64,000 nt of DNA from Hoeflea prorocentri (GTDB lineage: Bacteria > Pseudomonadota > Alphaproteobacteria > Rhizobiales > Rhizobiaceae): positions 3,720,001 to 3,784,000 of the forward strand of contig NZ_JAPJZI010000001.1 in the NCBI RefSeq assembly GCF_027944115.1, given 5' to 3'. Below are positions 1 to 12,019 of the stretch, piece after piece. Each line of letters starts with the position of its first letter. Positions within the stretch are counted from its first letter, which is position 1. A model generated the notes under the pieces. The model saw nothing but the letters and a program-made list of their open reading frames with translations. It searched no databases and was not told where the DNA came from. The position numbers and the translations under genes were made by a program.

Positions 1-783
1 GTGGGGCGGCGCAGCCCGGATGATCTCAGACCCATCGAGCACCGGGTTCCGGGCGAAGTCAGCGGGCTGGTGCTGACCATCAACGATCTGGTGCGCCGCT
101 TCGGCTCGTCCATCTCGGCGCTGCGCAATTTCACCGCCAATGCCAGCCACCAGCTCCGCACCCCGCTCACCGTGATGCGCACGCAGCTTGAGATCGCCAA
201 CCGCGCCGCGACGCCGGACGAACGCCAGGCGGCGCTGAAGGAAACCGACGAAGCCATCGGCGAGGCCGAGCGGGTGCTCTCGCAGCTTCTTGTCCTCGCC
301 CGGCTCGATTCCACCGATCAGGGCGATGTCGCCGGGCGGCGCTGCGATCTGGCGGATGTCAGCCGGCAGGTCTGCCAGGATCTCATCGCCGGCAACCTCT
401 CCCCCGATATCGACCTCGGCTATGAGGGGCCGGAGCATCTTGCCGCCCGGGGCGATGCCGTGTTGATGCGCGAGATGCTGCGCAACATTATCGAAAACAG
501 CCTGCGCCATGGCGGGCGGCCGATCGAAATCACGGTTCGGCTGCGCGCTGAGGACGGGCGGGCGGTTCTGGAAATCGAGGATGACGGCAGCGGCATCGCG
601 CCGTCGGAGCGCCAGTCCGTGCTGCAACGCTTCGAGCGCGGCGGCGACACCGCCTCGGAAGGCAGCGGGCTTGGCCTTGCCATTGCCCATGAGATCGCCG
701 CGCTCTTCGGCGGCACGCTCGATCTGGCAACGCCCGAGAGCGGCAAGGGCCTGCTGGTGCGCATCGGCTTCGCCGCCGCCTGA
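1..783 (+). CDS. Sensor histidine kinase, C-terminal part (5' end off window)
   Basis: Carboxy-terminal part of a membrane-bound two-component sensor kinase. The gene runs in from the left edge, so the GTG at position 1 is only where the window opens. What remains shows the end of a HAMP linker (about residues 8-40), the HisKA dimerisation helix with phospho-acceptor His50 in NASHQLRTPL, and a HATPase_c domain with an N box (IIENSLRHG), a G1 box (DDGSGI) and a G2 box (GLGLAIAHE). The missing part would hold the sensor domain and membrane helices. The kinase core resembles the QseC/TctE group; this is a family-level judgement. A partner response regulator would be expected upstream, outside the window. 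Confidence 0.9.
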   Translation: MGRRSPDDLRPIEHRVPGEVSGLVLTINDLVRRFGSSISALRNFTANASHQLRTPLTVMRTQLEIANRAATPDERQAALKETDEAIGEAERVLSQLLVLARLDSTDQGDVAGRRCDLADVSRQVCQDLIAGNLSPDIDLGYEGPEHLAARGDAVLMREMLRNIIENSLRHGGRPIEITVRLRAEDGRAVLEIEDDGSGIAPSERQSVLQRFERGGDTASEGSGLGLAIAHEIAALFGGTLDLATPESGKGLLVRIGFAAA

Positions 784-810
784 ACCTTCAAAAATCACGC
801 CATCTTGCAT

Positions 811-850
811 TTAGTTCGATATCGCACTATATAGTACGAAATCGAACTAA
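811..850. promoter_or_regulatory. Double palindromic operator upstream of nitroreductase-marR
   Basis: A 40-bp inverted repeat. The outer arms TTAGTTCGAT (811-820) and ATCGAACTAA (841-850) are perfect reverse complements, and the centre holds ACTATATAGT. It can also be read as two adjacent 18-bp imperfect palindromes, 812-829 and 832-849, each of the form TAGTTCGAT-ATCGAACTA, with centres 20 bp apart. That is the size and spacing expected for two MarR-type dimers side by side. The site ends 11 bases before the nitroreductase ATG, so binding would block the promoter or the start. Binding by the MarR protein encoded two genes downstream is inferred. Confidence 0.75.
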
Positions 851-861
851 TGAGGGATATT

Positions 862-1968
862 ATGACCATCAGCCGACGCAAAATGCTCACCATCATCGGC
901 GGCGGAACCATTCTTGCCGCCACCGGCGTCTCGACGCTCTTTGCCACGACGCGCCGCCCGGGCAAGGCGCTTGCCCCGTGGGAGGCCGCCGGCGGCGAGA
1001 GCGAACCGCGCCGGCGGGCGCTCTCCTTTGCCATCCTCGCGCCCAACCCGCATAACCGCCAGCCCTGGCTGGTCGATCTCAGCGAGGCGGATACGGTGAC
1101 GCTTTACCGCGACACGGAGCGCGAGCTGCCCCATACGGACCCGTATCAGCGCCAGCTCACCATCGGCCTTGGCTGTTTCCTCGAACTGATGGCGATCGCC
1201 GCCTCGCAGACCGGTCATGCGGTCGAGTTGGATCTTTACCCGCAAGGCGAGGACGGGCCGGTCGCCATCTGCCGGTTCCGCGAGGGTGCAACGCCCGACC
1301 CGCTCTTTGCCCATGTGATGGACCGGCGCTCCTGCAAGGAGCCTTATAGCGCCGAGCCGGTGCCGGCGGCGATGATCGAGCAGCTTTCGCCGCTCGCCGA
1401 TATCCGCACTGAGCCGGACGATGTCGCCAAAATCCGCGATCTCACCTGGCAGGCGTGGCTCACCGAGATGCAGACGGAGCGCACGCTGATGGAAAGCGTC
1501 GAGCTGATGCGTTTCGGCAAGGCGGAGATCAACGCCAATCCGGACGGGATCGATCTCGGCGGCCCGTTCCTCGAAGCGCTGATGCTCGCTGGCATGCTTT
1601 CGCGCGAGGCGCAGGCCGACCCGGCCTCCACCGGCTTCAAGGAGGGCGTGCGCCTCTATGAGGAGATGCTCTTTGCAACGCCCGCCTATGCCGTCCAGAC
1701 GACGCCGGGCAACAGCCGCGCCGACCAGATCGAAGCCGGACGGCGCTGGCTGCGGCTCAATCTCACCACCACGTCGCTCGGCTTGTCGCTGCATCCGGTC
1801 AGCCAGGCGCTGCAGGAGTTTGACGAGATGCGCCCGCATTATGAAAAGGCGCATGCGATGCTCGCCCCGGCTGGCCATACGGTGCAGATGCTTGGTAGGC
1901 TCGGATTCGGGCCGCAGGCGAATCCGTCGCCGCGCTGGCCGCTGGAGACGCGCATCATCAATGGATAG
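862..1968 (+). CDS. Acg-family FMN-binding nitroreductase-like protein, Tat-exported
   Basis: A 368-residue protein of the Acg/nitroreductase-like flavoprotein family. The N-terminus SRRKMLTIIGGG followed by a hydrophobic stretch looks like a twin-arginine signal, so the folded flavoprotein is probably exported to the periplasm. The segment APNPHNRQPWLV, near residue 58, is typical of the FMN-binding region of this family. An in-frame ATG lies 12 bases upstream at 850, but ATG 862 has GAGGG five bases before it and is preferred. The stop overlaps the start of the marR gene by 8 bases, so the two are probably co-transcribed and co-regulated. The substrate cannot be read from sequence. Confidence 0.8.
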   Translation: MTISRRKMLTIIGGGTILAATGVSTLFATTRRPGKALAPWEAAGGESEPRRRALSFAILAPNPHNRQPWLVDLSEADTVTLYRDTERELPHTDPYQRQLTIGLGCFLELMAIAASQTGHAVELDLYPQGEDGPVAICRFREGATPDPLFAHVMDRRSCKEPYSAEPVPAAMIEQLSPLADIRTEPDDVAKIRDLTWQAWLTEMQTERTLMESVELMRFGKAEINANPDGIDLGGPFLEALMLAGMLSREAQADPASTGFKEGVRLYEEMLFATPAYAVQTTPGNSRADQIEAGRRWLRLNLTTTSLGLSLHPVSQALQEFDEMRPHYEKAHAMLAPAGHTVQMLGRLGFGPQANPSPRWPLETRIING

Positions 1969-2410
1969 CAAGACGCTTTCGCATTACTTCCACCTGTTCA
2001 ACGAGATCGGCATCATCGCCCAGTTAAGCCGCGCCCTCTTCGAGGCGCGGCTGCCCGAGGGCTTCCTGATCTCGCATTTCTCCGTGCTCAACCACCTCAT
2101 CCGCGTCGGCGACGGCCCGACGCCGCTGCGCCTCGCCAACGCCTTCCAGGTGCCCAAGACGACGATGACGCACACGCTCTCCGGCCTTGAAAAACACGGC
2201 CTCATCGACATGCGCCCCAACCCCGAAGACGGCCGCAGCAAATGCGTCTGGCTGACAGACGCCGGCCGCGACTTCCGCAACAACGCCATCGCCGCGCTGG
2301 GGCCGGATATGGCGCAGCTGGCCGAGCGCTACCCGCCGGAGTTTATCGAGGATGTGACGCCGAAGCTGGCGGAGATCAGGACGTTTCTGGATGCGGCGCG
2401 GGATGGGTGA
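1961..2410 (+). CDS. MarR-family transcriptional regulator
   Basis: A 149-residue winged-helix regulator of the MarR family. The central part carries the expected helix-turn-helix and wing: TPLRLANAFQVPKTTMTHTL (about residues 53-72), then a recognition helix and a DGRSKCVWLTDAG wing. Flanking helices would form the dimer interface. Start ATG 1961 overlaps the end of the nitroreductase gene by 8 bases; earlier in-frame starts lie deep inside that gene and are unlikely. The double palindrome upstream of the operon is the obvious candidate for its autoregulatory operator. A 6-bp stem (2412-2417 with 2421-2426) lies right after the stop but has no T run. Confidence 0.88.
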   Translation: MDSKTLSHYFHLFNEIGIIAQLSRALFEARLPEGFLISHFSVLNHLIRVGDGPTPLRLANAFQVPKTTMTHTLSGLEKHGLIDMRPNPEDGRSKCVWLTDAGRDFRNNAIAALGPDMAQLAERYPPEFIEDVTPKLAEIRTFLDAARDG

Positions 2411-2573
2411 GGTTTGAGAGTCAAACATGACCTTTGTAAACCTTGCTGTGTGTTCGGCGCAGCGTTGGAGTTTGCTGCCGGGGAATTGCTCTAAAGTGGC
2501 GAAATTAGCTTGTGGACAACAATCATAGGTTATTGAATTGACCTATTTCATTACTATCTGAGTCTCATGGTAG

Positions 2574-2692
2574 CGCTTCGAGCAGAAGCAGCCTTCACGA
2601 CGGTTACACGTCACAAGCCATTCGGTTTTGGTTCTGGAAACAGGCGAGCCGTGGATTGTGATACCGCAGGTCGCAATATGCCGATCTGTCTG
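2574..2692 (+). repeat. 119-bp direct repeat, copy 1 (reverse-transcriptase locus)
   Basis: This 119-bp segment recurs without a single mismatch at 2886-3004, an offset of 312 bp. Copy 2 encodes the C-terminal part of the small membrane protein starting at 2723; copy 1 carries the same codons in the same frame, but no usable start lies close before it. A hairpin ATAGGT (2525-2530) / ACCTAT (2541-2546) stands about 30 bp upstream. Copy 1 could be the remnant of a tandem gene duplication, or part of a structured RNA serving the adjacent reverse transcriptase. Perfect identity means either a recent duplication or active homogenisation. Confidence 0.95.
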
Positions 2693-2722
2693 GTTGATAG
2701 TGACTGCTGTAAGGAGTTGACC

Positions 2723-3019
2723 ATGCCTGCAGATAGTAAAATTGCACAACAGGCTATGGACAATCGTGACGGGTGGCGGAAGCATCGAGGATTGATTGCC
2801 GGAGCCATTTGTTCTTGTTTTGTTCTGCTTGCAGTGCTCGCCGGGCCAAACTACATTAATGGTGCTGTCGAGGAGACTGAGCTGACGCTTCGAGCAGAAG
2901 CAGCCTTCACGACGGTTACACGTCACAAGCCATTCGGTTTTGGTTCTGGAAACAGGCGAGCCGTGGATTGTGATACCGCAGGTCGCAATATGCCGATCTG
3001 TCTGAGCAAGCTTCGATGA
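2723..3019 (+). CDS. Small single-pass membrane protein in the reverse-transcriptase locus
   Basis: Predicted 98-residue protein that I cannot assign to a family. ATG 2723 has a strong ribosome site (AAGGAG, six-base spacer). Residues 1-20 are polar and charged, about 21-42 (GLIAGAICSCFVLLAVLAG and beyond) form one membrane helix, and the remaining 55 residues carry two cysteines and would face the periplasm if the N-terminus is inside. Residues from about 55 onward are encoded by copy 2 of the 119-bp repeat. The stop is 28 bases before the reverse-transcriptase ATG, so the two may share a transcript. It may be a toxic effector of a defence system, or the region may act mainly as RNA. Both are inference. 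Confidence 0.5.
   Translation: MPADSKIAQQAMDNRDGWRKHRGLIAGAICSCFVLLAVLAGPNYINGAVEETELTLRAEAAFTTVTRHKPFGFGSGNRRAVDCDTAGRNMPICLSKLR
2886..3004 (+). repeat. 119-bp direct repeat, copy 2 (reverse-transcriptase locus)
   Basis: Perfect copy of 2574-2692; identity stops at both ends within a base. The 312-bp period (119 bp repeat plus 193 bp spacer) is a multiple of three, so the same reading frame runs through copy 1, spacer and copy 2 without a stop. The copies show no adenine-specific differences, which argues against a diversity-generating template/variable pair. Confidence 0.95.
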
Positions 3020-3052
3020 GACATAGGTTTTCTGATATTGTGCTCCTATGTC
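3020..3052 (+). promoter_or_regulatory. Hairpin enclosing the reverse-transcriptase start codon
   Basis: GACATAGG (3020-3027) and CCTATGTC (3045-3052) form a perfect 8-bp stem with a 17-base loop. The ATG of the reverse transcriptase (3048-3050) lies inside the right arm, and no Shine-Dalgarno sequence is visible before it. The left arm shares CATAGGT with a hairpin near 2524-2546, so a long-range alternative pairing of ACCTAT (2541-2546) with 3023-3028 would free the start codon. This suggests translational control, or an RNA structure recognised by the enzyme. Confidence 0.6.
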
Positions 3053-4304
3053 CAAAGAAGAAGTTCGATATCCGAAACCAGTAAAGATACTGTCCCCGAG
3101 CAATCTTAGAATCGCTTGGCGCCAGTCTCGTGATTGCACAAAAAAGAGTGCTGCGCCTGGTACCGATCGAATGCGAGCATCAACGTTCGCGACAAATCTG
3201 CATGCTAATATTGAGTCTCTTTCCTCGCAGCTAAAGACCGAATACTCGTTTTCTTCACTGCGACCTTTTTTGGTTCCAAAATCTGGCAGGAAACGGGATC
3301 GGGTGATTTGTATCCCTACTGTGAAAGACCGGTTGGTCCAACGCGCTATCGCAAATTACCTCCACACTGCTCAAAAACTGCCCATATATAATTCATCGTC
3401 ATTCGGCTTTCTTCCAAATACTGGTACCAAAGATGCATTGCGTGAAGTGCTAAAACTTCGCCGCAGTCATGATTTCGTTTTCGAGACCGATATCACGTCG
3501 TTTTTTGACAGAATCGACCGAAGCTACTTGCGACGACGCATTGAATGTACGTTGGGAAGGCATAGCGCCGTCCCGTTGCTACTAAAAATCGTTAATTCCG
3601 AGGTCAAGTATGACCGGAAGTACAACCGAACCTTCTTGGAGAGTTTGGGGATAGAATCCGGAGTGGGAATCCGTCAGGGCATGCCACTATCGCCTACATT
3701 GGCGAATCTTGTCTTATCGGAATTCGATGCCGCAATAGAAAAGAAAAATATCAAAATGGTCCGTTATGCAGATGACGTGGTCGTCTTTGCACATAGCAAA
3801 GAAGCTGCATTGGAGGCCGGTGAGTTTGTCAAGGAGCGGCTTTTGTCAATTGGACATTCGATTCCAGACCTAGAACAGGGCGGGAAAACACAGCTAGTGA
3901 CAAAATTCGACCCTCTAGAATTTCTGGGAAGAGAGATAGTTTTTTCCGGACGACAGGGAGATTTCATCCAACGCATTTCAAAGAGTAAAATCGAGAAGAT
4001 GAAAGAAAAAATTGTCGAGCTATCTGATGTTGATCAAGCGATAGAAGACAATTTGTCCTTTGCTGAATTAGTGCAGAAAATCGCGAGAAAAACGGCTTCC
4101 TTCCTGCATTCCTACTCAGATGTGGACAATGCTGCTCATCTGGAGCACGAACTTAGGAGTGCTCGCAACATGGCGCAAACCAAGATGATTGTAGAAGTGT
4201 TTGGCGCAAACGCACTCAAGAACATAGCTCAAAAACACAGGAGTTTTATCGGGCTAGTCGGCGAGGATTTGCAGATGGGTGACTTGGAATTCGACTATCT
4301 CTGA
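3048..4304 (+). CDS. Stand-alone reverse transcriptase (RVT_1), possibly defence-associated
   Basis: A 418-residue RNA-directed DNA polymerase. Motifs in order: fingers region PKSGRKRDRVICIPTVKDR (about 78-96), motif A ETDITSFFDRID with a catalytic Asp, motif B RQGMPLSPTLANL, and motif C RYADDVVVF with the catalytic Asp pair, followed by a FLGREI palm/thumb element. SP rather than SQ in motif B argues against a diversity-generating type, and I see no retron VTG or NAxxH motif. There is no maturase or HNH extension, so it is not an ordinary group II intron protein. The best fit is the stand-alone UG/DRT (defence) type or an unclassified group-II-like type. It sits in lower-GC DNA just after the repeat region; the exact class is unresolved. 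Confidence 0.88.
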   Translation: MSKEEVRYPKPVKILSPSNLRIAWRQSRDCTKKSAAPGTDRMRASTFATNLHANIESLSSQLKTEYSFSSLRPFLVPKSGRKRDRVICIPTVKDRLVQRAIANYLHTAQKLPIYNSSSFGFLPNTGTKDALREVLKLRRSHDFVFETDITSFFDRIDRSYLRRRIECTLGRHSAVPLLLKIVNSEVKYDRKYNRTFLESLGIESGVGIRQGMPLSPTLANLVLSEFDAAIEKKNIKMVRYADDVVVFAHSKEAALEAGEFVKERLLSIGHSIPDLEQGGKTQLVTKFDPLEFLGREIVFSGRQGDFIQRISKSKIEKMKEKIVELSDVDQAIEDNLSFAELVQKIARKTASFLHSYSDVDNAAHLEHELRSARNMAQTKMIVEVFGANALKNIAQKHRSFIGLVGEDLQMGDLEFDYL

Positions 4305-4313
4305 CGGCTTTGG

Positions 4314-4697
4314 TCAGGCAATCGTAAAGATCGCTAGGAGCACGCCTAGAACGGCTAGGCCAAACGATAACCCTGCCATCCAAGCGGGAAGATAGACAGC
4401 GGGATCTGGCGAACTTAGATACCAACCGAGCTTGCCCAACAAACCAACATTCTCAATTCTAAACTTCAAAATGCCGCCTTTCTCCGCCCCTAACTTCTGC
4501 CTGATGTCAAAAGGCATGAAAATAGAACCTTCGTTCTCATGCCCCAAGACGAGCGTTTTGACCGACAACCTGTTTTCAATATTGGTTATTTTGGCGATAC
4601 CGTATCGCGGAATGCCACTTCGATGCTTGTGGTTTAGGCGAACCAACAAACGGCCGGCATCACTTGAGGGAAGTTTTTCAATTGGTAACTCGTTCAT
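4314..4697 (-). CDS. Small tail-anchored membrane protein, unknown function
   Basis: Predicted 127-residue protein, convergent with the reverse transcriptase and ending 10 bases after it. I do not recognise the family. The first 100 residues are soluble (for example HRSGIPRYGIAKITN and SIFMPFDIRQKLGAEKG), and the C-terminus PAWMAGLSFGLAVLGVLLAI is one membrane helix, so it should be tail-anchored with its body in the cytoplasm. The frame is open further upstream to 4904, but the extra residues look non-coding and the MNELP start is preferred; the ribosome site is weak. Its AT-rich codons match the island. Confidence 0.55.
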   Translation of the reverse strand: MNELPIEKLPSSDAGRLLVRLNHKHRSGIPRYGIAKITNIENRLSVKTLVLGHENEGSIFMPFDIRQKLGAEKGGILKFRIENVGLLGKLGWYLSSPDPAVYLPAWMAGLSFGLAVLGVLLAIFTIA

Positions 4698-4934
4698 AAT
4701 GCGCTCACAGCTGCTTCTGCGCGCGGTACACTCAGTCCCAGGTATCCGTCTCGGGCGAGCAAATTTTATCGCGCATGTTATCAAGGAACTGACCTGATTA
4801 AGGGACAGGAAAATCAATAGCCGTATCATAAAGGGTATCGGGTAAACCGTCACCGTGAAGTCCATACATCCAAGTGGAAGCTGAACGATGCTAAACTTTC
4901 CCAACCTTAAACTGGCGTGATTCGGAGATGAAGA

Positions 4935-5453
4935 ATGTTTGACGTGGCCAGCCTACCGACTGTGATAAATAGCGTGAAAACCGCAGTTGAAACCCTTGCC
5001 AGTTTGAAGTCACTTAAGGGTGATCCGGATGCAAAAGCCGCTCTAGACGAGGTCGAACGCGCATTGTTGGAGGCTCGCGCAATGGCGAATGAGGCGCAAT
5101 TGCGCGAGTGGGAGCTTATGCAGAAACTCAAAGCATTGCAGGCGGAGTTTGATGAGAGCAAAGCATGGCGGAATACGCTAGAAAAGTATGAGGAAGTGTC
5201 ATACGGCGAAGGAAAATCAGCCTATCGACTCAAGACGGATTACAATTCGTGCGAAGGTGACTGCTACGCTTGTCCAAAGTGCATTGGCGAGAAAAAGATT
5301 TCGCACCTTCAATTTCAAAACCGCACTTATGAGGCTTTAGATTTTTACAAATGCTATGATTGTGGTGGCGAGTTTTTCTACGGCACGTCAAACGGCGATA
5401 GCGGAATACAAACCGTCAGTGCGGGTCGCGGTTGGAGTGTCTTCGACGTCTGA
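4935..5453 (+). CDS. Coiled-coil and zinc-ribbon protein, unknown function
   Basis: A 172-residue protein with a good ribosome site (GGAG seven bases before ATG). Residues 1-85 are a heptad-rich coiled coil (AALDEVERALLEARAMANEA and onward). The C-terminal half has two Cys pairs, CYACPKC around residue 110 and CYDCGG around 140, forming a likely zinc ribbon. Such proteins occur scattered in mobile and phage-derived regions. The role could be nucleic-acid or partner binding; nothing in the sequence shows an enzyme. It lies inside the lower-GC island, between the reverse transcriptase and the HEPN-like gene, in the same orientation as both. Confidence 0.6.
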   Translation: MFDVASLPTVINSVKTAVETLASLKSLKGDPDAKAALDEVERALLEARAMANEAQLREWELMQKLKALQAEFDESKAWRNTLEKYEEVSYGEGKSAYRLKTDYNSCEGDCYACPKCIGEKKISHLQFQNRTYEALDFYKCYDCGGEFFYGTSNGDSGIQTVSAGRGWSVFDV

Positions 5454-5541
5454 AAAATCTAACTTATATAAACCGCACTTGCTTCAGAGCATGCCGTCTC
5501 AATAGTCGGCAATCGCGTTTCAATCTACCCATGAGACCTTT

Positions 5542-6138
5542 ATGGACAGCAAGTTCTCAGAAGCAATCGGGTTGCGCGAAACCTGGCCAACTGAACCGCA
5601 GTTGGAAGAAGCAATGTCCATGGCTGGCTGCTATAAATGGGCGGCTGCCTTTTTTGATGCAGCGGAGACACTTTTGCTCGCCTCGGAGATGGTGGTGGGG
5701 AGTTCCTTCTATCAAGGGCCTGTTATTCAAAACGTGGGACTAGCAACTGAGCTGTCGCTAAAGGCCTTACTACGGGGAGCTGGAAAAACAAACGAAGAGC
5801 TAAAACGGGCTGGGCACAACTGCTACCGACTCTATTGCGAGTCGCGTATTTGCTTCGATGAAAGCAGGTTCCTTAGTCAGCATCTCGCAAATACATCGCA
5901 CATTCCAATATCGGATGAGATCCGTGAACGAGTAGCGAAGAACAATCCTACTTGGGACGCCGAGCATATTGATCTACGTTGGCGTAACTACTTTGATCAT
6001 TTGCGGCTTCTTGATTTGACATACGACAGACCATTTAGGAGCCGGTACGTAGAACCCGGCGATGTTATATTGCCTGATGCTGAAGTAATAATGATTGGCA
6101 CGAAGTTGTTTCTAGCTGCAATGAAAGAACGTTTGTAA
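5542..6138 (+). CDS. HEPN-like protein, candidate toxin or effector
   Basis: A 198-residue mainly helical protein. The first part (AAAFFDAAETLLLASEM, then NVGLATELSLKALLRGAG, then a GHNCYRLY segment) follows the usual HEPN pattern: a helix with small residues, a second helix ELxxKALL, then a short GH(N/D)xxxL element. Classical HEPN ribonucleases carry RxxxxH; here a weak equivalent (RAGHNC) lacks that spacing, so nuclease activity is doubtful. HEPN proteins are common in abortive infection and toxin-antitoxin systems, which fits the neighbouring reverse transcriptase. Start ATG 5542 lacks a strong ribosome site. The gene ends at the right border of the island. Confidence 0.55.
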   Translation: MDSKFSEAIGLRETWPTEPQLEEAMSMAGCYKWAAAFFDAAETLLLASEMVVGSSFYQGPVIQNVGLATELSLKALLRGAGKTNEELKRAGHNCYRLYCESRICFDESRFLSQHLANTSHIPISDEIRERVAKNNPTWDAEHIDLRWRNYFDHLRLLDLTYDRPFRSRYVEPGDVILPDAEVIMIGTKLFLAAMKERL

Positions 6139-6189
6139 GCGGGCTGCCCCATCCATTACCGTCCGACCGCCTCCCCAAGCCCAAACCCT

Positions 6190-6209
6190 CCTGACAGAAA
6201 GTTGTCAGG
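6190..6209. promoter_or_regulatory. Inverted repeat upstream of SRPBCC gene
   Basis: CCTGACA (6190-6196) and TGTCAGG (6203-6209) form an interrupted palindrome with a six-base centre GAAAGT, 46 bases before the SRPBCC start. With its two-fold symmetry and a spacing of about 13 bp between arm centres it looks like a regulator operator. It could instead act as a weak terminator of the HEPN-like gene, but no T run follows. The cognate regulator is not visible nearby. Confidence 0.45.
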
Positions 6210-6254
6210 GGGTGTGTGTTAGATGATCGGTCAAAATGCCAGGGGATAGACGAC

Positions 6255-6647
6255 ATGATACGCGCTGAACGGAGTCTTGAGATCGATGCCGCGCCGGAGG
6301 TGATCTGGGGGGTGCTGGGTCAATTCATGGAGATCGATGCGATTGCGCCGGGGGTGACATCGGTGGATGCGCTGACGCAAGGCGAGGACGGGATGGGCTC
6401 GATGCGGCGCTGCACGTTTACAAATGGCGGCTCGACGGTCGAAGAGGCGCAGGCGGAGATCGCGCTGACGCCGCTTGGCGAAAGCCGCACGCGGGTCACA
6501 TGGTCGATGGATTTTCGTGTCAAGTTCGGGCCGCTCGGCTGGCTGATGGGCCAGATGGTGATGAAGCCGATGATGGGCAAGGTGCTGGACGGCAATCTGC
6601 AAGGGCTTGCCGACAAGGTCCGGGCGGAGCATGCGCAAGCAGCATGA
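6255..6647 (+). CDS. SRPBCC-family protein (polyketide cyclase/START-like fold)
   Basis: A 130-residue protein of the SRPBCC superfamily (Bet v1-like helix-grip fold that binds hydrophobic ligands). The N-terminus RSLEIDAAPEVIWGVLGQF matches the usual start of the fold, followed by beta strands (MRRCTFTNGG; RVTWSMDFRVK) and a long C-terminal helix. ATG 6255 follows AGGGG by ten bases and is chosen over 6216, which lacks a ribosome site. GC content returns to the high background here. The ligand and role are unknown; many relatives are small lipid-binding or stress-related proteins. No operon partner: the next gene lies on the opposite strand. Confidence 0.75.
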   Translation: MIRAERSLEIDAAPEVIWGVLGQFMEIDAIAPGVTSVDALTQGEDGMGSMRRCTFTNGGSTVEEAQAEIALTPLGESRTRVTWSMDFRVKFGPLGWLMGQMVMKPMMGKVLDGNLQGLADKVRAEHAQAA

Positions 6648-6724
6648 ATGAACGGCATACCGGGCACCCCGCATAGCGGGTTCCAACCACGGCGCTCAGT
6701 CCCACATTCTGTCAGCCCGAAAAC

Positions 6725-7132
6725 TTAATCGTCCGAGATGCGATGGTAGATGAGGCTGCGGCCGTCGTCGCTGGCTCCGTAGCGGATGACGCCGGTCTCG
6801 TCGTCGCGGACGAAATACCTGTTTTCCAGGCTGACGGGTTCCGCGCCCTGACAGAAAACCCGGGCGTTTTCGCGCAGGAGTGTGCCTTCTTCGACCAGAC
6901 GTCCTGTCGCGACGATCCATCCGACACCGGTTTCGCAAAGCGAGATGACTGACGGAACGATGCGGATCTCGAATTCGCCGGGCGCGGTGGTCGAAATCGA
7001 CAGGTAGTCGACAGAGCCATCAAGGGCGTCGAGACCCTTGTACAGGCCGACCCACTCATTCTCCCCGGCAGTTGAAGGCACGGCCGAGACGGCCAGAAAG
7101 ACAAGTGCAGCCCCGAAAATCCGATTGATCAT
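6725..7132 (-). CDS. Secreted hypothetical protein
   Basis: A 135-residue protein beginning MINRIFGAALVFLAVSA, a clear signal peptide with probable cleavage near PSTAG. The mature part is a small beta-rich domain with two cysteines (LCETG and VFCQGA), probably one disulfide in the periplasm. A longer open frame reaches 7273 but the added residues are unlike protein and the signal peptide fixes the start at 7132. I do not recognise a family. It lies 88 bases downstream of the YHYH-domain gene on the same strand and may share its transcript. Confidence 0.6.
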   Translation of the reverse strand: MINRIFGAALVFLAVSAVPSTAGENEWVGLYKGLDALDGSVDYLSISTTAPGEFEIRIVPSVISLCETGVGWIVATGRLVEEGTLLRENARVFCQGAEPVSLENRYFVRDDETGVIRYGASDDGRSLIYHRISDD

Positions 7133-7220
7133 CGCCTGACATGTCCTTTTGTTTTGCCGCCAAAGGCAGTCTATGAAGGTTGGGCAGGCCAGACAAGGCG
7201 GCGCCAGCGCCGGTCCTGTC

Positions 7221-8207
7221 CTAGCGGGGCTTGAAGAAAGACCGGTCGGGCTGCCCGCGCAGGCAGGCGACAATCCACGGATAGGCGTCGGTCACGTAAT
7301 AGCGGTAGGAGCCGCCCACGGTCATGCCGTTGCATTCGTCGAGATCGCCGGCATTGGTGAACTCGTAATCGTCCCGGTAAAGGCCGTCATAGGCGCCGCC
7401 CGGATTGCCGTCGCCGGAGGGGCGCATACCCTCTTTCAGCGTATAGCCTGATTTGACCTTCCGGACCGTTCCCGTCTCGTCCTTGAAATAGGAGCCGTAA
7501 ATCGGGAAGCCGTCGGCGGCGAAGCCGATAAGGGGCGAGCCGTCCGGCCCCGGATCGTCGTCAAACAGCGCGCGCGGGTTGCCGTGATAATGATAGCGCC
7601 CGTCCGGCTGGGTGTGGGCGTGATGATTGTCCTCGGCGAAGCCTGCGAGCGGCGACATCGGATCGAGCAGCCAGGGATCGTCGGCGCGGCAGCCGGCGAG
7701 CACATTGCCTTGCGGGTTGGCCTGCGGGCTTGTCGGCCGGTAGCAGCCTGCCGACTGGATATCCACGACCGCGCCGTTGAGCATGACCGCATCGAAGCTG
7801 CCGTGATCGATCTCATTGATCTGTTCGGAGGCCTGCGGATTGCGGGCGATCTTGAATGTGTGGTCGATGGCGGCAACCGGCGATGGGAAATTGCGCCGCG
7901 AGCCGCCGCCGACATTGTGGTTCGGGATGCCGTTCGACCGGATCGTGCAACCGTCCTCATCGGCGGTGATGATCACGGCGCCGCCGAGCGGTCTTTCCTG
8001 CTGCAGGTCGGTGATCTCGGAGACGGAGGTGCTGACATGGTCGGCGCAGTCTGGCGATGTGTTGGTCAAAATCACATCGGTGATATCGACGCTGGCGGGA
8101 TTGCTGTCGGCGGCCTGCTCTGTTTCATCGGCGTCGTGCGCGAAGCCGGGCGCGGCCAACAGGAGGCCTGCCAGAAATCCAAATCCAACGACGGCGCGGC
8201 TGGTCAT
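7221..8207 (-). CDS. Exported YHYH-domain protein
   Basis: A 328-residue exported protein with a signal peptide (residues 1-23, ending LLLAAPGFA). Its C-terminal half contains DGRYHYHGNP, the motif that names the YHYH domain, then IGFAADGFPIYG and the conserved ending SYRYYVTDAYPWI. The histidine-rich motif suggests metal binding, but the biochemical role of the family is unknown to me. The start at 8207 has GGGAGA seven bases upstream; longer starts up to 8267 would place residues before the signal peptide. It lies 43 bases downstream of the adenylate cyclase gene on the same strand. Confidence 0.8.
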   Translation of the reverse strand: MTSRAVVGFGFLAGLLLAAPGFAHDADETEQAADSNPASVDITDVILTNTSPDCADHVSTSVSEITDLQQERPLGGAVIITADEDGCTIRSNGIPNHNVGGGSRRNFPSPVAAIDHTFKIARNPQASEQINEIDHGSFDAVMLNGAVVDIQSAGCYRPTSPQANPQGNVLAGCRADDPWLLDPMSPLAGFAEDNHHAHTQPDGRYHYHGNPRALFDDDPGPDGSPLIGFAADGFPIYGSYFKDETGTVRKVKSGYTLKEGMRPSGDGNPGGAYDGLYRDDYEFTNAGDLDECNGMTVGGSYRYYVTDAYPWIVACLRGQPDRSFFKPR

Positions 8208-8250
8208 CCTGCTTCTCCCAATTATCATTTCGATACGCGACGATACGGGT

Positions 8251-9489
8251 TCATCCCGCCGCGTCAATCAAAGGAGCACGTTCGCCGGTCAGGAAATAGG
8301 TGGCCATCTCACCCTTGCCCTTGATCTCAATCGTGCCGCGCGGCTCCAGCACGAACCGGTCGCGCAGAAGCTTCGCCGTGTCGGCACTGACCTGAATGCG
8401 CCCGGCCTGCCCATGGCTTTCCATGCGCGCGGCGATGTTGACCGTATCGCCCCACAGATCATAGGCGAATTTCTTCTGGCCGATGACGCCGGCGACAACC
8501 GGGCCCGAATGAATGCCGATGCGGATATTCAGATCCTTGCCCGTTTCCCGCGACACCTCGTCCGCGGTGATCAGCATGTCGAGGGCGAGCCTTGCTATCG
8601 CATCGGCATGGTCCTCCCTTTCGACGGGCAAGCCGGCGACCACCATATAGGCGTCACCAATGGTCTTGATCTTTTCAAGGCCGCGCGCGTCGACCAGATC
8701 GTCGAAGCGGCAGAAAATGCTGTTGAGCATCGTCACCAGCGCTTCCGGCGAGGAGCGGCCGGCAAGCTCGGAAAAGCCGACAATATCGGCGAAGAGGATC
8801 GTCGCGTTGCCGTGGCTGTCGGCAATGACCCTGGTTTCACGTTTCAGCCGCTCGGCGACGGAAGGCGGCATGATGTTGTGCAAGAGCGCCTCGGACTTCC
8901 GGTATTCCGCCGCAAGCGCCGCTTCCGCCCGGTCCACGGCGTGGCGGTAGGTGAGCACCACCATCAAAAGCAAGCCGGCGGTGGCCGTGCCGTTGACGAC
9001 GGCGAAAATCAGGTTCCATGCGGGCGGCAGAGGGGCGATGGGCGGCAGCGTCAATCCGATCACCAGCGCGGCGACGAAGACCGCTGCGTTGACACCCATG
9101 AGCACCCACTGCATGCGCCGGCTCACCCATTCGCTCAAGGGGCAATAGAGCATGCCGACAAGCGCAAAGAGGAAGAAACCAGGCTTTAAGCCCACATAGA
9201 GGGTGATGAGGATGACGCCGACAATGTTCTGACCGTTCACCAGATGAAAGCCCGTGCCAGCCCGCCCGCTGACCAGGCAGAAAAAACAGACAAATGTGAG
9301 GAGCGATCCGAGGGCCGCGAAAGCAGCAAGGACGTTCTGGCCGAGCTGCAGGAAAATGAAGGCCGTAACGCCTTGGACGACGATCCAGGCGCTGTAGCCG
9401 ATTTTCGCGGCGAAAAAAATGCGGGCCTCGCCGGTGGGCAAACCCTCCGGCACATGGGCATACCAGGCAAGGACCCGATCGAGAACCAT
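8251..9489 (-). CDS. Membrane-anchored class III adenylate cyclase
   Basis: Predicted 412-residue protein converting ATP to cyclic AMP. The first 180 residues contain several hydrophobic segments (for example GYSAWIVVQGVTAFIFLQLG), giving a polytopic membrane anchor, then a short linker and the catalytic domain. The domain shows metal-binding Asp in LFADIVGFSELAG, a KTIGDAYMV segment with a putative adenine-binding Lys, and YDLWGDTVNIAARM with the Asp, Asn and Arg expected of an adenylate rather than guanylate cyclase. ATG 9489 follows GGGAG. GTG 9519 is also possible but lies within a copied fragment of the upstream AraC gene. The TGATG remnant there suggests it was once translationally coupled to araC. 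Confidence 0.85.
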   Translation of the reverse strand: MVLDRVLAWYAHVPEGLPTGEARIFFAAKIGYSAWIVVQGVTAFIFLQLGQNVLAAFAALGSLLTFVCFFCLVSGRAGTGFHLVNGQNIVGVILITLYVGLKPGFFLFALVGMLYCPLSEWVSRRMQWVLMGVNAAVFVAALVIGLTLPPIAPLPPAWNLIFAVVNGTATAGLLLMVVLTYRHAVDRAEAALAAEYRKSEALLHNIMPPSVAERLKRETRVIADSHGNATILFADIVGFSELAGRSSPEALVTMLNSIFCRFDDLVDARGLEKIKTIGDAYMVVAGLPVEREDHADAIARLALDMLITADEVSRETGKDLNIRIGIHSGPVVAGVIGQKKFAYDLWGDTVNIAARMESHGQAGRIQVSADTAKLLRDRFVLEPRGTIEIKGKGEMATYFLTGERAPLIDAAG

Positions 9490-9530
9490 CAAAACCGCTC
9501 TCCCATCAGCCGATAGCACCAGAAGGCTTC
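9489..9530. repeat. 42-bp direct repeat, left copy (araC 3'-end fragment)
   Basis: This segment matches 10022-10063 at 39 of 42 positions. The right copy is the real 3' end of the AraC gene, encoding EAFWCYRLMGERF-stop; the left copy is an isolated fragment of that end immediately before the adenylate cyclase start. In the left copy the former araC stop and the cyclase ATG overlap as TGATG. The pattern matches an insertion into the 3' end of araC that rebuilt the gene end at its far side, as integrative elements do. Confidence 0.85.
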
Positions 9531-9596
9531 ATTGTCAGGTTTTCTAAAAACCGCACTAACACAAATCCGTCTCCTTCAGATAATACGAGTGATGTG

Positions 9597-10001
9597 ATGT
9601 CCGACAACTTGCAAAAGCGAAACAGAAAGACGGGTTTCGCTCTATCACTTGTTGCGATCTGGCCAGTTACACTTCTTATATGTGGCTCGCTAGTCGCGTT
9701 TGTACTTGTCCTGCTTGCGGTGGAGGCTCCACTGAACGAGCAGCAAGCGATTGATCGGAGCGTTGAGAAGATAAAGTCTGACTACAGGCAAAATTGCGAT
9801 TTCGATGTCAAGGTTAAGGTTGCTGACACACACAAAATGGAAGGCAATTCCTACGATATCTTGCATAGAGTAGAATCGGATGATTACGGGCCCTACTCAA
9901 TAAGGGCATTTGTTTATCCAGATGTTTACTTCCTCTTTTTCAGAACAAGAAACGTCGATTTGCTCGGCGGAATCCACGATTGCAATAAGAACCAGAAGTA
10001 A
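9597..10001 (+). CDS. Small single-pass membrane protein inserted between araC and cyclase
   Basis: A 134-residue protein of unknown family. Residues 13-43 form one membrane helix (ICGSLVAFVLVLLAV at its core), preceded by lysine- and arginine-rich residues, so the C-terminal 90 residues should be periplasmic; they carry two cysteines (RQNCDFDV and HDCNK). The gene is AT-richer than its neighbours, reads opposite to them, and is bounded by 42-bp direct repeats made from the araC end, so it looks acquired. GTG 9594 directly precedes ATG 9597; the latter is preferred. No ribosome site of note. Confidence 0.55.
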   Translation: MSDNLQKRNRKTGFALSLVAIWPVTLLICGSLVAFVLVLLAVEAPLNEQQAIDRSVEKIKSDYRQNCDFDVKVKVADTHKMEGNSYDILHRVESDDYGPYSIRAFVYPDVYFLFFRTRNVDLLGGIHDCNKNQK

Positions 10002-10021
10002 CCCGCGTTGGTCATCGCTCG

Positions 10022-10063
10022 TCAAAACCGCTCACCCATCAGCCGGTAGCACCAGAAGGCCTC
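10022..10063. repeat. 42-bp direct repeat, right copy (intact araC 3' end)
   Basis: Right-hand copy of the 42-bp repeat at 9489-9530, with three mismatches. It forms the last 14 codons including the stop of the AraC gene. The two copies bracket about 490 bp of AT-richer DNA with one small gene and no integrase. Confidence 0.85.
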
Positions 10064-10858
10064 TTCCGTTTCGATCAGGCGATTGAGGCGGGCGGGGGAA
10101 AAGCCGGTGGCGCGCTTGAGGGCGCGGCCCATATGGGACTGGTCGGCGAAATCGGCGTCTAGGGCCATTTCGGCGAGCGGCGCGGCAGGGGCCTGAACGC
10201 TGAGGCGGTGGAGGTCTTCGATCCTCGCGTAGAAATCGAGCGATTGGCGCGATTGCCCGGTCCAGCGGCGCACATGCCGTTCGAGCGTGCGGGCGCTCTT
10301 TGCCGGTGCGGCAAGGGCGATGCGGGTGAGGACATGGCGGGACCAGTCGGCAAGGCGGTGGGAGCCCGGCCAGTCGGCGAGATGTCCGGTCTTGCGGGCG
10401 CTCGCCCATATCGGGGCAAGTTTTTGGCAGAACGTGTCCCACCGGCTTTCGATGTCATCCGCATCGCTCAAAAGCGCCAGCAGGTCTTTCAGTCCGTCCG
10501 GCAAGGCCTTACTCCCCGGCGCGCCGCCAAGGCTTACCCAGGCATCGGGATAAAAGCCGATGGTAAGCGCCGCCACCGGGCCGGGGCTCCAGCTCAAGAT
10601 GGGCGTCGCCTGCGGCGGGGTGACGGAGACGGCAGGCATGGGCGGCGTGGCGCGCAAGGTCTCCAGATCGCAGATACCTTCGGCCATATGCAGCGTGCCG
10701 GAGAGCACACAGGTCACCGCCGGCAGAGGCGAAGCCGGGAAATAGTTCATCCGGTCTTGCTCGCTCAGCTCCGCCCCGCGCGTGTCGCGCAAAATGGCGG
10801 CGGCCATGCAGCTTGCAAGGTACGGCGGCGGCAGGTGAAGGCTGGATTTCGGTTGCAT
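10022..10858 (-). CDS. AraC-family transcriptional regulator
   Basis: A 278-residue regulator. The C-terminal 100 residues hold the two helix-turn-helix units of the AraC/XylS DNA-binding domain, seen in ARTLERHVRRWTGQSRQSL and DADFADQSHMGRALKRATGF, followed by the usual SPARLNR. The N-terminal 160 residues are a divergent ligand-sensing part without a clear cupin signature. The stop and last codons are those duplicated near 9489-9530, which suggests this gene was once directly followed by the adenylate cyclase gene. The next gene upstream, a hydrolase, is divergent with 87 bases between starts, so the regulator may act there. Confidence 0.85.
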   Translation of the reverse strand: MQPKSSLHLPPPYLASCMAAAILRDTRGAELSEQDRMNYFPASPLPAVTCVLSGTLHMAEGICDLETLRATPPMPAVSVTPPQATPILSWSPGPVAALTIGFYPDAWVSLGGAPGSKALPDGLKDLLALLSDADDIESRWDTFCQKLAPIWASARKTGHLADWPGSHRLADWSRHVLTRIALAAPAKSARTLERHVRRWTGQSRQSLDFYARIEDLHRLSVQAPAAPLAEMALDADFADQSHMGRALKRATGFSPARLNRLIETEEAFWCYRLMGERF

Positions 10859-10945
10859 GATCGGGCTCTGTCTGTCGCGATCATTCTATAGGACGGGACG
10901 CGCCTGTGCGAAACCCTGACCAACGAAACCAACAGGATGACCTCG

Positions 10946-12019
10946 ATGGCACAGGTGAAATTTTCCGGCCCCCTCCCCTTGAGCCTCGCAAGCTTCATGA
11001 CCCTCAACCGGATCGCGATTGGCGTCATGGCCCGCCATCTGATCGGCCGCAGAATAGCGCCCGACTGGGACTGGCAGACGGAAATCGGCATCCGTTTCTG
11101 GCGGCACCAGTTCACGAAGGCGATGAACCACAAGGATATCGGACAAGGCCGGGCGATCTATGACAGCCTGCAGACCGAGACGGACGACATTTATCCGGTC
11201 CAGACAAGGGATTGCGATAGGCCGAAGGGACGCTGGTTTTATCCCGACGGGATCACGAGCGATGCCGTCCTGCTTTACCTTCATGGCGGCGGTTACACGT
11301 TCAACGGGCCGAACAGCGATCGCTTCGCGGCGATGCTTGCCCATCATGCCGGGGCGCGTCTGTTCATGCCGCTCTACCGGCTGACGCCGGACCATCCCCA
11401 CCCGGCGCAGGCTGAAGACGCGCTGGCGGCCTGGCGGTTTGTCGGCAAGCACGCGCCCGCCGAAAAGACGGTGGTGATCGGCGACAGCGCCGGCGGCCAT
11501 ATGGCGTTGACGCTGCTGCAAAGTCTCAAACAGGAACGTCTCGCGCAGCCGGCGCTTTGCATCGCGCTTTGCCCGTGGACCGATATCGGCGCGCGTGGCC
11601 GGAGCCTGACAGACAACAACCGGTACGATCTCGTCCAGGGCTGGATGGCGCTGCGCTTCGGCGAATGGCTGGACCCTGAAGGCCGTTATGGCCGTGAGGC
11701 CCTTTCGCCGATCAGCCATGACTACGCCGGGCTCGCGCCGATCTACATGCAGGCGGGCGGGCGCGAAATGCTGCGCGACATGATCATCGACTTCGCCGAG
11801 GTTCAGGCCGGGAACGGCGCGGATATCATGCTCGATATCTGGGATGACATGCCGCATGATTTCCAGGCCTATGGCAGCACCAAGGCTTCATCGGCCAAGG
11901 CGCTGGCGCGCATTCGCGACGCGGTTCATGGTCATGTCGACGGCGGCAAGCTGCTTGCAACGCTGCCCGAGATCACCCGCACGGCACATGGGTGTTTTGA
12001 TCGCGGTTCAGGCCTTTGA
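10946..12019 (+). CDS. Alpha/beta hydrolase, hormone-sensitive-lipase family
   Basis: A 357-residue alpha/beta hydrolase. HGGGYTFNGP (about residues 113-122) is the oxyanion-hole motif of the hormone-sensitive-lipase (HSL) esterase family and GDSAGGHM carries the nucleophilic Ser of the GxSxG elbow near residue 181. A later Asp and the His in DMPHDFQAYG complete the triad. The 70 residues before HGGG form a cap. No signal peptide is clear, so it is probably cytoplasmic or membrane-associated. ATG 10946 has AGGA at suitable spacing; ATG 10937 is nine bases earlier. Divergent from the AraC gene and convergent with the next gene, overlapping its end by 12 bases. Substrate unknown. Confidence 0.85.
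   Translation: MAQVKFSGPLPLSLASFMTLNRIAIGVMARHLIGRRIAPDWDWQTEIGIRFWRHQFTKAMNHKDIGQGRAIYDSLQTETDDIYPVQTRDCDRPKGRWFYPDGITSDAVLLYLHGGGYTFNGPNSDRFAAMLAHHAGARLFMPLYRLTPDHPHPAQAEDALAAWRFVGKHAPAEKTVVIGDSAGGHMALTLLQSLKQERLAQPALCIALCPWTDIGARGRSLTDNNRYDLVQGWMALRFGEWLDPEGRYGREALSPISHDYAGLAPIYMQAGGREMLRDMIIDFAEVQAGNGADIMLDIWDDMPHDFQAYGSTKASSAKALARIRDAVHGHVDGGKLLATLPEITRTAHGCFDRGSGL

Follow-up and report, generated by a model that had tools for sequence, protein, structure and literature searches.

Two bacterial reverse transcriptase (RT) systems, DRT2 and DRT10, are the closest described parallels to the locus we report here. Gene building by iterative reverse transcription has been documented for DRT2 (PMC12039810, PMC11100668), and these papers describe units which are divisible by three, free of stops and supplied with a ribosome-binding site (RBS) each (PMC12039810), as well as a template jump made via a short repeat found at both ends of the template (PMC11100668). 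Repeat addition has been documented for DRT10, where the template follows an A–B–A' logic (PMC12632851).

The stretch of DNA that we analysed, referred to below as the window, comprises 64,000 nt of the Hoeflea prorocentri genome (GCF_027944115.1; contig NZ_JAPJZI010000001.1, positions 3,720,001–3,784,000 of the forward strand), and includes an RT gene preceded by two long direct repeats (R1 and R2), the linker between them (B) and a hairpin. The likeness to DRT2 consists of a three-fold and stop-free unit (inferred from R plus B, and seen in seven of the eight loci of this family with repeats), an RBS in each unit, and repeats at the ends. The differences from DRT2 are a repeat of 119–150 nt rather than the 3-nt ACA, a unit of 312–453 nt rather than 111–129 nt, and an open sense-strand frame, coding for hydrophobic segments, which in the native locus already begins with a start and ends with a stop. 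The R–B–R order found in eight of ten distinct loci would correspond to the A–B–A' arrangement of DRT10 if it serves as a template, as we infer; UG17 is also the best PADLOC match of the RT after the general RT model, and a small membrane-type protein is encoded within the locus. However, the unit is at least 312 nt here compared with 9 nt in DRT10 and the repeats are far longer than the 3–4-nt matches of DRT2 and DRT10.

By sequence the RT belongs to neither system, with 51.6 bits against NCBIfam Drt2 (cut-off 390) and 49.6 bits against PADLOC Drt2, while UG17 scores were 110.8–142.8 bits for five RTs of the family and 131.4 bits for the RT of L038, compared with 438.8 bits for a genuine UG17 RT (L051), from which our phylogenetic tree also separates the family. 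SLATT proteins were sought among the seven linker proteins and the 127-aa neighbour of the window RT with PADLOC (no match at E ≤ 1), and with Pfam among the seven linker proteins (no match at E ≤ 1); two further downstream ORFs of the window gave no SLATT match either. The closest solved RTs by sequence are group II-like (G2L4 and Cas6-RT-Cas1), and the best NCBIfam match is the group II intron model TIGR04416 (176.7 bits, below the cut-off of 300). We nevertheless reject a group II intron, since a maturase domain was found in none of the 11 RTs of the clade described below and no Rfam intron RNA was found in window positions 1–12000, L001, L038 or L004. No paper describing such an RT–repeat system was found among the titles and abstract openings of open-licence PubMed Central articles and some preprints (paywalled work and most preprints lie outside this collection), and the unit, which is real and recurrent, is apparently undescribed.

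Layout of the locus in the window

R1 (2574–2692, + strand) and R2 (2886–3004, +) are identical at 119 of 119 positions and lie directly upstream of the RT gene, as had been noted in an earlier reading of the DNA made from the sequence alone. That sequence-only reading placed the copies 312 bp apart, which is correct as the start-to-start distance and incorrect as a gap, since 193 bp separate them. No further direct repeat of at least 60 nt was found in the 64-kb window, and a 561-nt query spanning the repeat region matched a single place in the 5.04-Mb genome. The linker (2693–2885, +; 193 nt) carries an RBS-like AAGGAG at 2711–2716 followed by the start codon at 2723 of a small ORF of 98 aa (2723–3019, +), for which R2 encodes the C-terminal ~40 aa and the stop lies 15 nt past R2, so that the ORF is complete natively with its own start and its own stop. 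The predicted protein has a single strongly hydrophobic segment at about residues 23–41 (hydropathy 2.40). The R+B unit (2574–2885, +) is 312 nt or 104 codons long and, when closed on itself, has one sense and one reverse frame without stops; the earlier reading had overlooked this endless frame as well as the hydrophobic ORF that the unit contains.

R2 is followed by a hairpin with an 8-bp stem and a 17-nt loop (GACATAGG/CCTATGTC; 3020–3052, +; P 0.015 by stem score), and the RT start codon sits in its 3' arm, so the hairpin which the earlier reading had described as enclosing the RT start is indeed present. The RT (3048–4304, +; 418 aa) has RQGMPLSP and YADD motifs, and RVT_1 is its only Pfam match above the cut-off (99 bits); an AlphaFold2 model of the protein had a mean pLDDT of 50.7 and was set aside. 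Downstream, a convergent gene (4314–4697, −) encodes a small protein of 127 aa with a hydrophobic C-terminus as judged by eye, and a protein of 68% identity is encoded beside the RT of L005, the nearest relative. This protein is possibly accessory because L048 has no such ORF (of at least 90 aa) between the RT and the next gene; L048 has R–B–R and the RT with no other ORF of at least 90 aa between the flanking genes. The G+C content is 44–50% across ~2.5–6.2 kb and near 65% in the surrounding region, as expected of acquired DNA.

Recurrence of the repeats in a rare RT clade

The RTs of the clade are 27–33% identical to the window RT, except for that of L005 at 82%. All 11 have the motif [IVL]RQGMP[LI]S[PS], and in all 11 RVT_1 was the only Pfam match at E ≤ 0.01. 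A phylogenetic tree (from which L010 and L030 were left out) placed these 11 RTs in one group (100/99) separate from 19 control RTs and the genuine UG17, L051, which is on a long branch. The clade is rare. When 385 genomes of the host class were searched with a profile, three carried a family member (the window genome, G754 and G951, scoring at least 388 bits) and the other matches listed reached no more than 162 bits. In the host family, three of 297 genomes had a match at E ≤ 1e-30; the window's own genome is counted in both figures. No members were found in 369 genomes of another class, and searches for further members gave none in 48 genomes and one each in sets of 27 and 13, both being G951 itself. 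Viral scans with the RTs of L011, L007 and L038 found no members, and when A2, L027 and L025 were the queries every contig found was one that we already had; amongst phage records there were 21 partial matches to the window RT, one partial match to that of L025, and none at E ≤ 1e-25 with the L011 RT as the query. Of 180 plasmid records, seven were examined.

Ten distinct loci had at least 500 nt of upstream sequence and an RT with its N-terminal part (the window, L007, L009, L010, L011, L025, L027, L030, L037 and L038). When these were searched for the same repeats, as the sequence-only reading had proposed, eight were found to have two near-identical copies of 119–150 nt around a linker with a small hydrophobic-protein ORF (119/119 identical positions in the window, 119/122 in L007, 129/129 in L010, 123/123 in L011, 143/145 in L025, 147/150 in L027, 141/142 in L030 and 118/119 in L038). 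Homologous RT loci without repeats, which that reading would have counted against itself, do occur: the clade RTs of L037 and of L009, which adjoins a recombinase gene, are not preceded by repeats, and the other eight loci are not of this kind. In L037 (1492–2730, minus strand) a 201-aa protein with hydrophobic segments is encoded directly after the repeat-less RT, and this locus may represent a branch with another organisation. The RT of L003 is a remnant that lacks the N-terminal part, and no repeat was found in the 1.5 kb upstream of it.

No direct repeat of at least 40 nt was found in the available upstream sequence of any of 22 control RT rows (19 distinct, as three pairs represent the same place twice; seven of the 22 have less than 500 nt upstream). 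Controls had to have Y[AVM]DD in an ORF free of interruptions, a filter by which L041, L051, L059, L064, L065 and L066 yielded no RT ORF, and the control set is thus without the genuine UG17 locus (L051); L046 and L047 are also outside the list. We note that a tandem repeat of 357 nt lies within the first 1.7 kb of L046, a locus whose match is on the minus strand. Before counting we dropped L008, L012 and L071, which duplicate L007, L011 and L009 either almost unchanged or in rearranged form, as well as L004, L005 and L026, where the 141 to 168 nt upstream are too short for the repeat test; L006 and L028 were set aside as DGR-type, and we did not assign L029, with an RT identity of 26% and no repeat found, or the remaining weak hits to the clade.

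Some of these shorter records can still be considered. The L005 contig (k99_...) starts inside the repeat, at a distance of exactly 98 bases from its right edge, and retains 98 nt of R2 at 92% identity (differing from the window at 8 of 98 positions). A name beginning with k99_ is the habit of a de Bruijn assembler run with k = 99, and such an assembler breaks a contig where a repeat is present twice. L005 very probably has a repeat pair with the same edge as the window because a start 98 bases before the edge fits a break at k = 99. The sequences of L004 and L026 likewise begin close to the RT, at 168 and ~150 nt from it, a no more than suggestive hint of a repeat. L007, L008, L010 and L011 come from records labelled complete. 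Judged from these sequences, the layout is not an accidental duplication but recurs in a divergent RT clade, because related RT loci share the repeat architecture.

R copies from distant loci were not alignable by blastn and a cross-locus alignment of R was equally fruitless, yet the copies within each locus are 97–100% identical, and it is for this reason that we conclude that the two copies of a locus evolve together. In three of four related pairs R is better conserved as DNA than the RT gene: L025 and L030 (R 98–99%, pre-start stretch 99%, RT gene 69%), the window and L005 (R 92%, post-R stretch 100%, RT gene 78%), and L007 and L008 (R 100%, linker ORF 100%, RT gene 94%), but not L010 and L011 (R 63%, pre-start stretch 84%, RT gene 67%). 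Over the 142 positions compared between L025 and L030, two sites were changed in both copies and one in a single copy only, and one G/C difference between the copies is the same in both loci. In several loci the copies differ at similar repeat positions (index 53 in L025 and L030, 53 and 56 in L027, and 35–37 in L007).

Unit length, open frame and hairpins

R+B was closed on itself for each repeat locus and stops counted in all six frames. In seven of the eight loci the unit is divisible by three (312, 399, 387, 378, 453, 381 and 375 nt) and has exactly one stop-free sense frame, with a probability of 0.003 that at least seven of eight units would be divisible by three by chance. The exception is L030, a relative of L025, which has a unit of 452 nt with stops in all frames and an RT broken by several frameshifts; in L010 the unit frame is intact despite an RT split into two ORFs. 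Open reverse frames were also found, one in the window and two in L027, a GC-rich locus for which 10% of shuffles would be expected to have an open sense frame as well.

It should be noted that much of the open frame is there because the small ORF starts in B and runs through R2. Nonetheless, frame continuity appears to exceed what a small native gene needs, as the small ORF accounts neither for the stretch from R1 to the start codon nor for the divisibility by three. Between the end of R1 and the chosen start codon the frame is open in seven of seven loci (the product of the shuffle probabilities is 4.5e-4), and with a chance of (1/3)^7 for divisibility the joint P is 2e-7 for the seven loci, or ~2e-6 when L010 and L011, which are related, are treated as a single locus (L030, with its broken RT, is outside this calculation). 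The start codons were picked by us from Shine–Dalgarno (SD)-like sites. In-frame start codons are also present upstream of R1 in four of the seven loci and within R1 in L007 and L011, L027 alone having no in-frame start before the linker, and a longer native ORF starting in or before R1 is possible.

An SD-like site lies within 16 nt of the chosen start in B in all seven loci, although it is weak before the GTG of L025 and unusually spaced in L027 and L038. The small proteins have one or two hydrophobic segments by eye, with the best 19-residue hydropathy values of 1.4–2.7 matched by 0–34 of 500 shuffled linkers, and L025 at 1.39 is under the usual threshold for a membrane span. The linker proteins of the seven loci had no Pfam match above the cut-off and no PADLOC match at E ≤ 1.

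The best hairpin after R2 recurs in nine distinct loci (three of which, L010, L011 and L026, are related) with a stem of 7–9 bp, a loop of 13–19 nt and stem sequences that differ. By stem score P is 0.01–0.06 in each locus and the combined Fisher p is 2e-7; L005, being the same as the window, and L030 were left out and L009 is reported apart. The hairpin of the repeat-less L009 has a P of 0.185, and 18 control RTs gave a combined p of 0.43. RNAfold energies for the post-R2 stretch were weak (z +0.24 to −1.51 in eight loci, −0.68 in the window), so the evidence for this hairpin lies in its recurring form and not in stability. Hairpins after R1 are likewise enriched over seven loci (Fisher p 5.6e-4), though not in the window (P 0.29). 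The hairpin at 2525–2546, which the sequence-only reading had counted as part of the system, exists but has a P of 0.16–0.26 against shuffles and a Fisher p of 0.21–0.22 over seven loci, and we do not retain it.

Single-sequence folding of seven R copies gave z values of −0.7 to −2.2, and a fold mildly better than that of shuffles is suggestive only; between the window and L005 there is no covariation, as none of 28 pairs was changed on both sides. Terminator scans of seven loci yielded nothing of use and sigma-70 promoter scans of the same loci were near the shuffled expectation, with only L025 in excess (4 versus 0.7), and TATAAT can be seen by eye in the linkers of L010, L011 and L038. Rfam searches of window positions 1–12000, L001, L038 and L004 gave one sub-threshold match only, to the antisense RNA family ctRNA_p42d, just upstream of R1 in L038 (L038:802–838; 26.3 bits against a gathering threshold of 50).

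A candidate mechanism and its rivals

By analogy with the systems described above we suggest, with a confidence a little under even, that the template is an RNA with a repeat at each end, on which the RT, having reached R1, jumps back to R2 and so produces a concatemeric cDNA for an endless membrane protein. A transcript starting near R1 and ending after R2 would be copied by the RT, which would begin in R2, pass through B and finish in R1, and the R1 cDNA would then re-anneal to R2 for the next round to give concatemeric cDNA. Strand transfer between the R regions of retroviruses is an analogous jump. The concatemer would be made double-stranded and transcribed, giving a nearly endless membrane protein with a start site in every unit, and this product would be toxic, the likely use being abortive defence against phages (we found no signs of a defence function beyond an AbiEi-like neighbour of L007). 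The sequence-only reading had viewed the repeats as sites where a nascent cDNA could slip, and this idea fits the three-fold unit length and unbroken frame. A wider claim, in which the long terminal repeats allow iterated retrovirus-like strand transfer that builds an endless membrane-protein gene, nothing beyond R–B–R and the RT is needed, and the repeats are homogenised by the RT or by its cDNA, we make more hesitantly, as it is perhaps somewhat less likely to be right than wrong.

The concatemer mechanism is plausible given the R1–B–R2–hairpin–RT order, the three-fold and unbroken sense frame, and the recurrence of both in a divergent clade. Its main weakness is that the native small ORF is already complete for one unit. 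In contrast to neo, a protein of one unit could thus arise with no help from the RT, and the presence in the clade of L009 and L037 without repeats also counts against it. If it is correct, a third RT lineage would have reached a DRT2/DRT10-like end by means of long terminal repeats, which would suggest a recurrent bacterial strategy and tie bacterial gene building to retroviral strand transfer. Direct repeats, a three-fold unit and an endless frame beside an RT would then form a genomic signature with which to find hidden genes.

The native ORF with its own start site and stop would also suit a retron-like control of a toxin, in which R1 is copied by the RT into a discrete cDNA complementary to R. 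This cDNA would pair with R2 in the message of a membrane toxin, acting as an antitoxin or a sensor, and no concatemer would be formed. The good conservation of R and the pre-start stretch as DNA in three of four pairs fits this, as do the hairpins after R1 (in seven loci, though weak in the window) and R2, but the relation between unit length and frame would not be predicted by it (seven of eight units are three-fold with an open frame), and we consider such control unlikely. Retron RTs are recognised by NAxxH in motif X and by VTG. NAxxH is absent from all 11 clade RTs and the St85 model gave 71.6 bits against a cut-off of 235; the letters VTG occur somewhere in two of the 11 (L007 and L025).

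Diversity-generating retroelements (DGRs) have TR and VR copies, one at the 3' end of an ORF with a hairpin after it, and RTs with the motif IGxxxSQ. The window resembles them in having two ~120-nt copies near an RT, one of which ends an ORF and is followed by a hairpin. DGR-like copying without mutagenesis, with R1 as the template and an RT-made cDNA which overwrites R2 and keeps the copies identical, would account for R2 as the C-terminal end of the ORF, the following hairpin, the joint evolution of the copies and their TR/VR-like size and spacing, and there are DGR-type loci amongst our distant hits (L028:5061–5641, with an adenine bias, and L006:2730–3232, by layout only; both look like a repeat pair beside an RT). 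We regard this as distinctly unlikely. Each locus has only 0 to 3 differences between the copies, of mixed bases and without adenine bias, whereas in L028 all 16 of 16 differences are at A in the copy nearer the RT; the G/C difference persists in both L025 and L030, and the open frame from R1 into B is left unexplained. In place of IGxxxSQ the 11 clade RTs carry RQGMPxSP or the SS variant (there is one chance match to IGxxxSQ-like letters near the N-terminus of the L005 RT). The view taken in the sequence-only reading, that DGR and retron hallmarks are missing, was upheld wherever the RTs and repeats were tested.

A recombination switch, in which a crossover between R1 and R2 excises an R+B circle or deletes the membrane gene with the RT as a neighbour or helper, would produce a circle carrying the same endless frame, and deletion could be the origin of L009, which lacks repeats and adjoins a recombinase gene. 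Such a switch would leave unexplained both the hairpin and the association with a single RT clade, and no solo-R locus was demonstrated amongst our loci, making this very unlikely. A recent duplication of the ordinary kind, tandem or in-frame, within a small gene, which the sequence-only reading had treated as the main alternative, would agree with copies that are 100% identical in the window and a small ORF running through R2, but we give it next to no weight as the same layout is found in seven further distinct loci, mostly with RTs only ~30% identical, R has diverged by 8% between the window and L005 while the end of the L005 contig implies a repeat with the same edge, and an assembly artefact is countered by the records labelled complete for L007, L008, L010 and L011.

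Finally, we note several features of individual loci. In L010 the RT (L010:5784–7008) is divided between an ORF of 79 aa and another of 314 aa, reflecting a broken gene, a sequencing error or recoding. L012 differs from L011 (both Acinetobacter baumannii records) by the inversion of a 766-bp core of the RT gene with the repeats intact, which could be a biological or an assembly effect. In L007 the gene directly after the RT (L007:7225–7944) matches AbiEi with 98.8 bits, making it a defence-related neighbour, and L008 has a similar ORF (L008:7225–7956).
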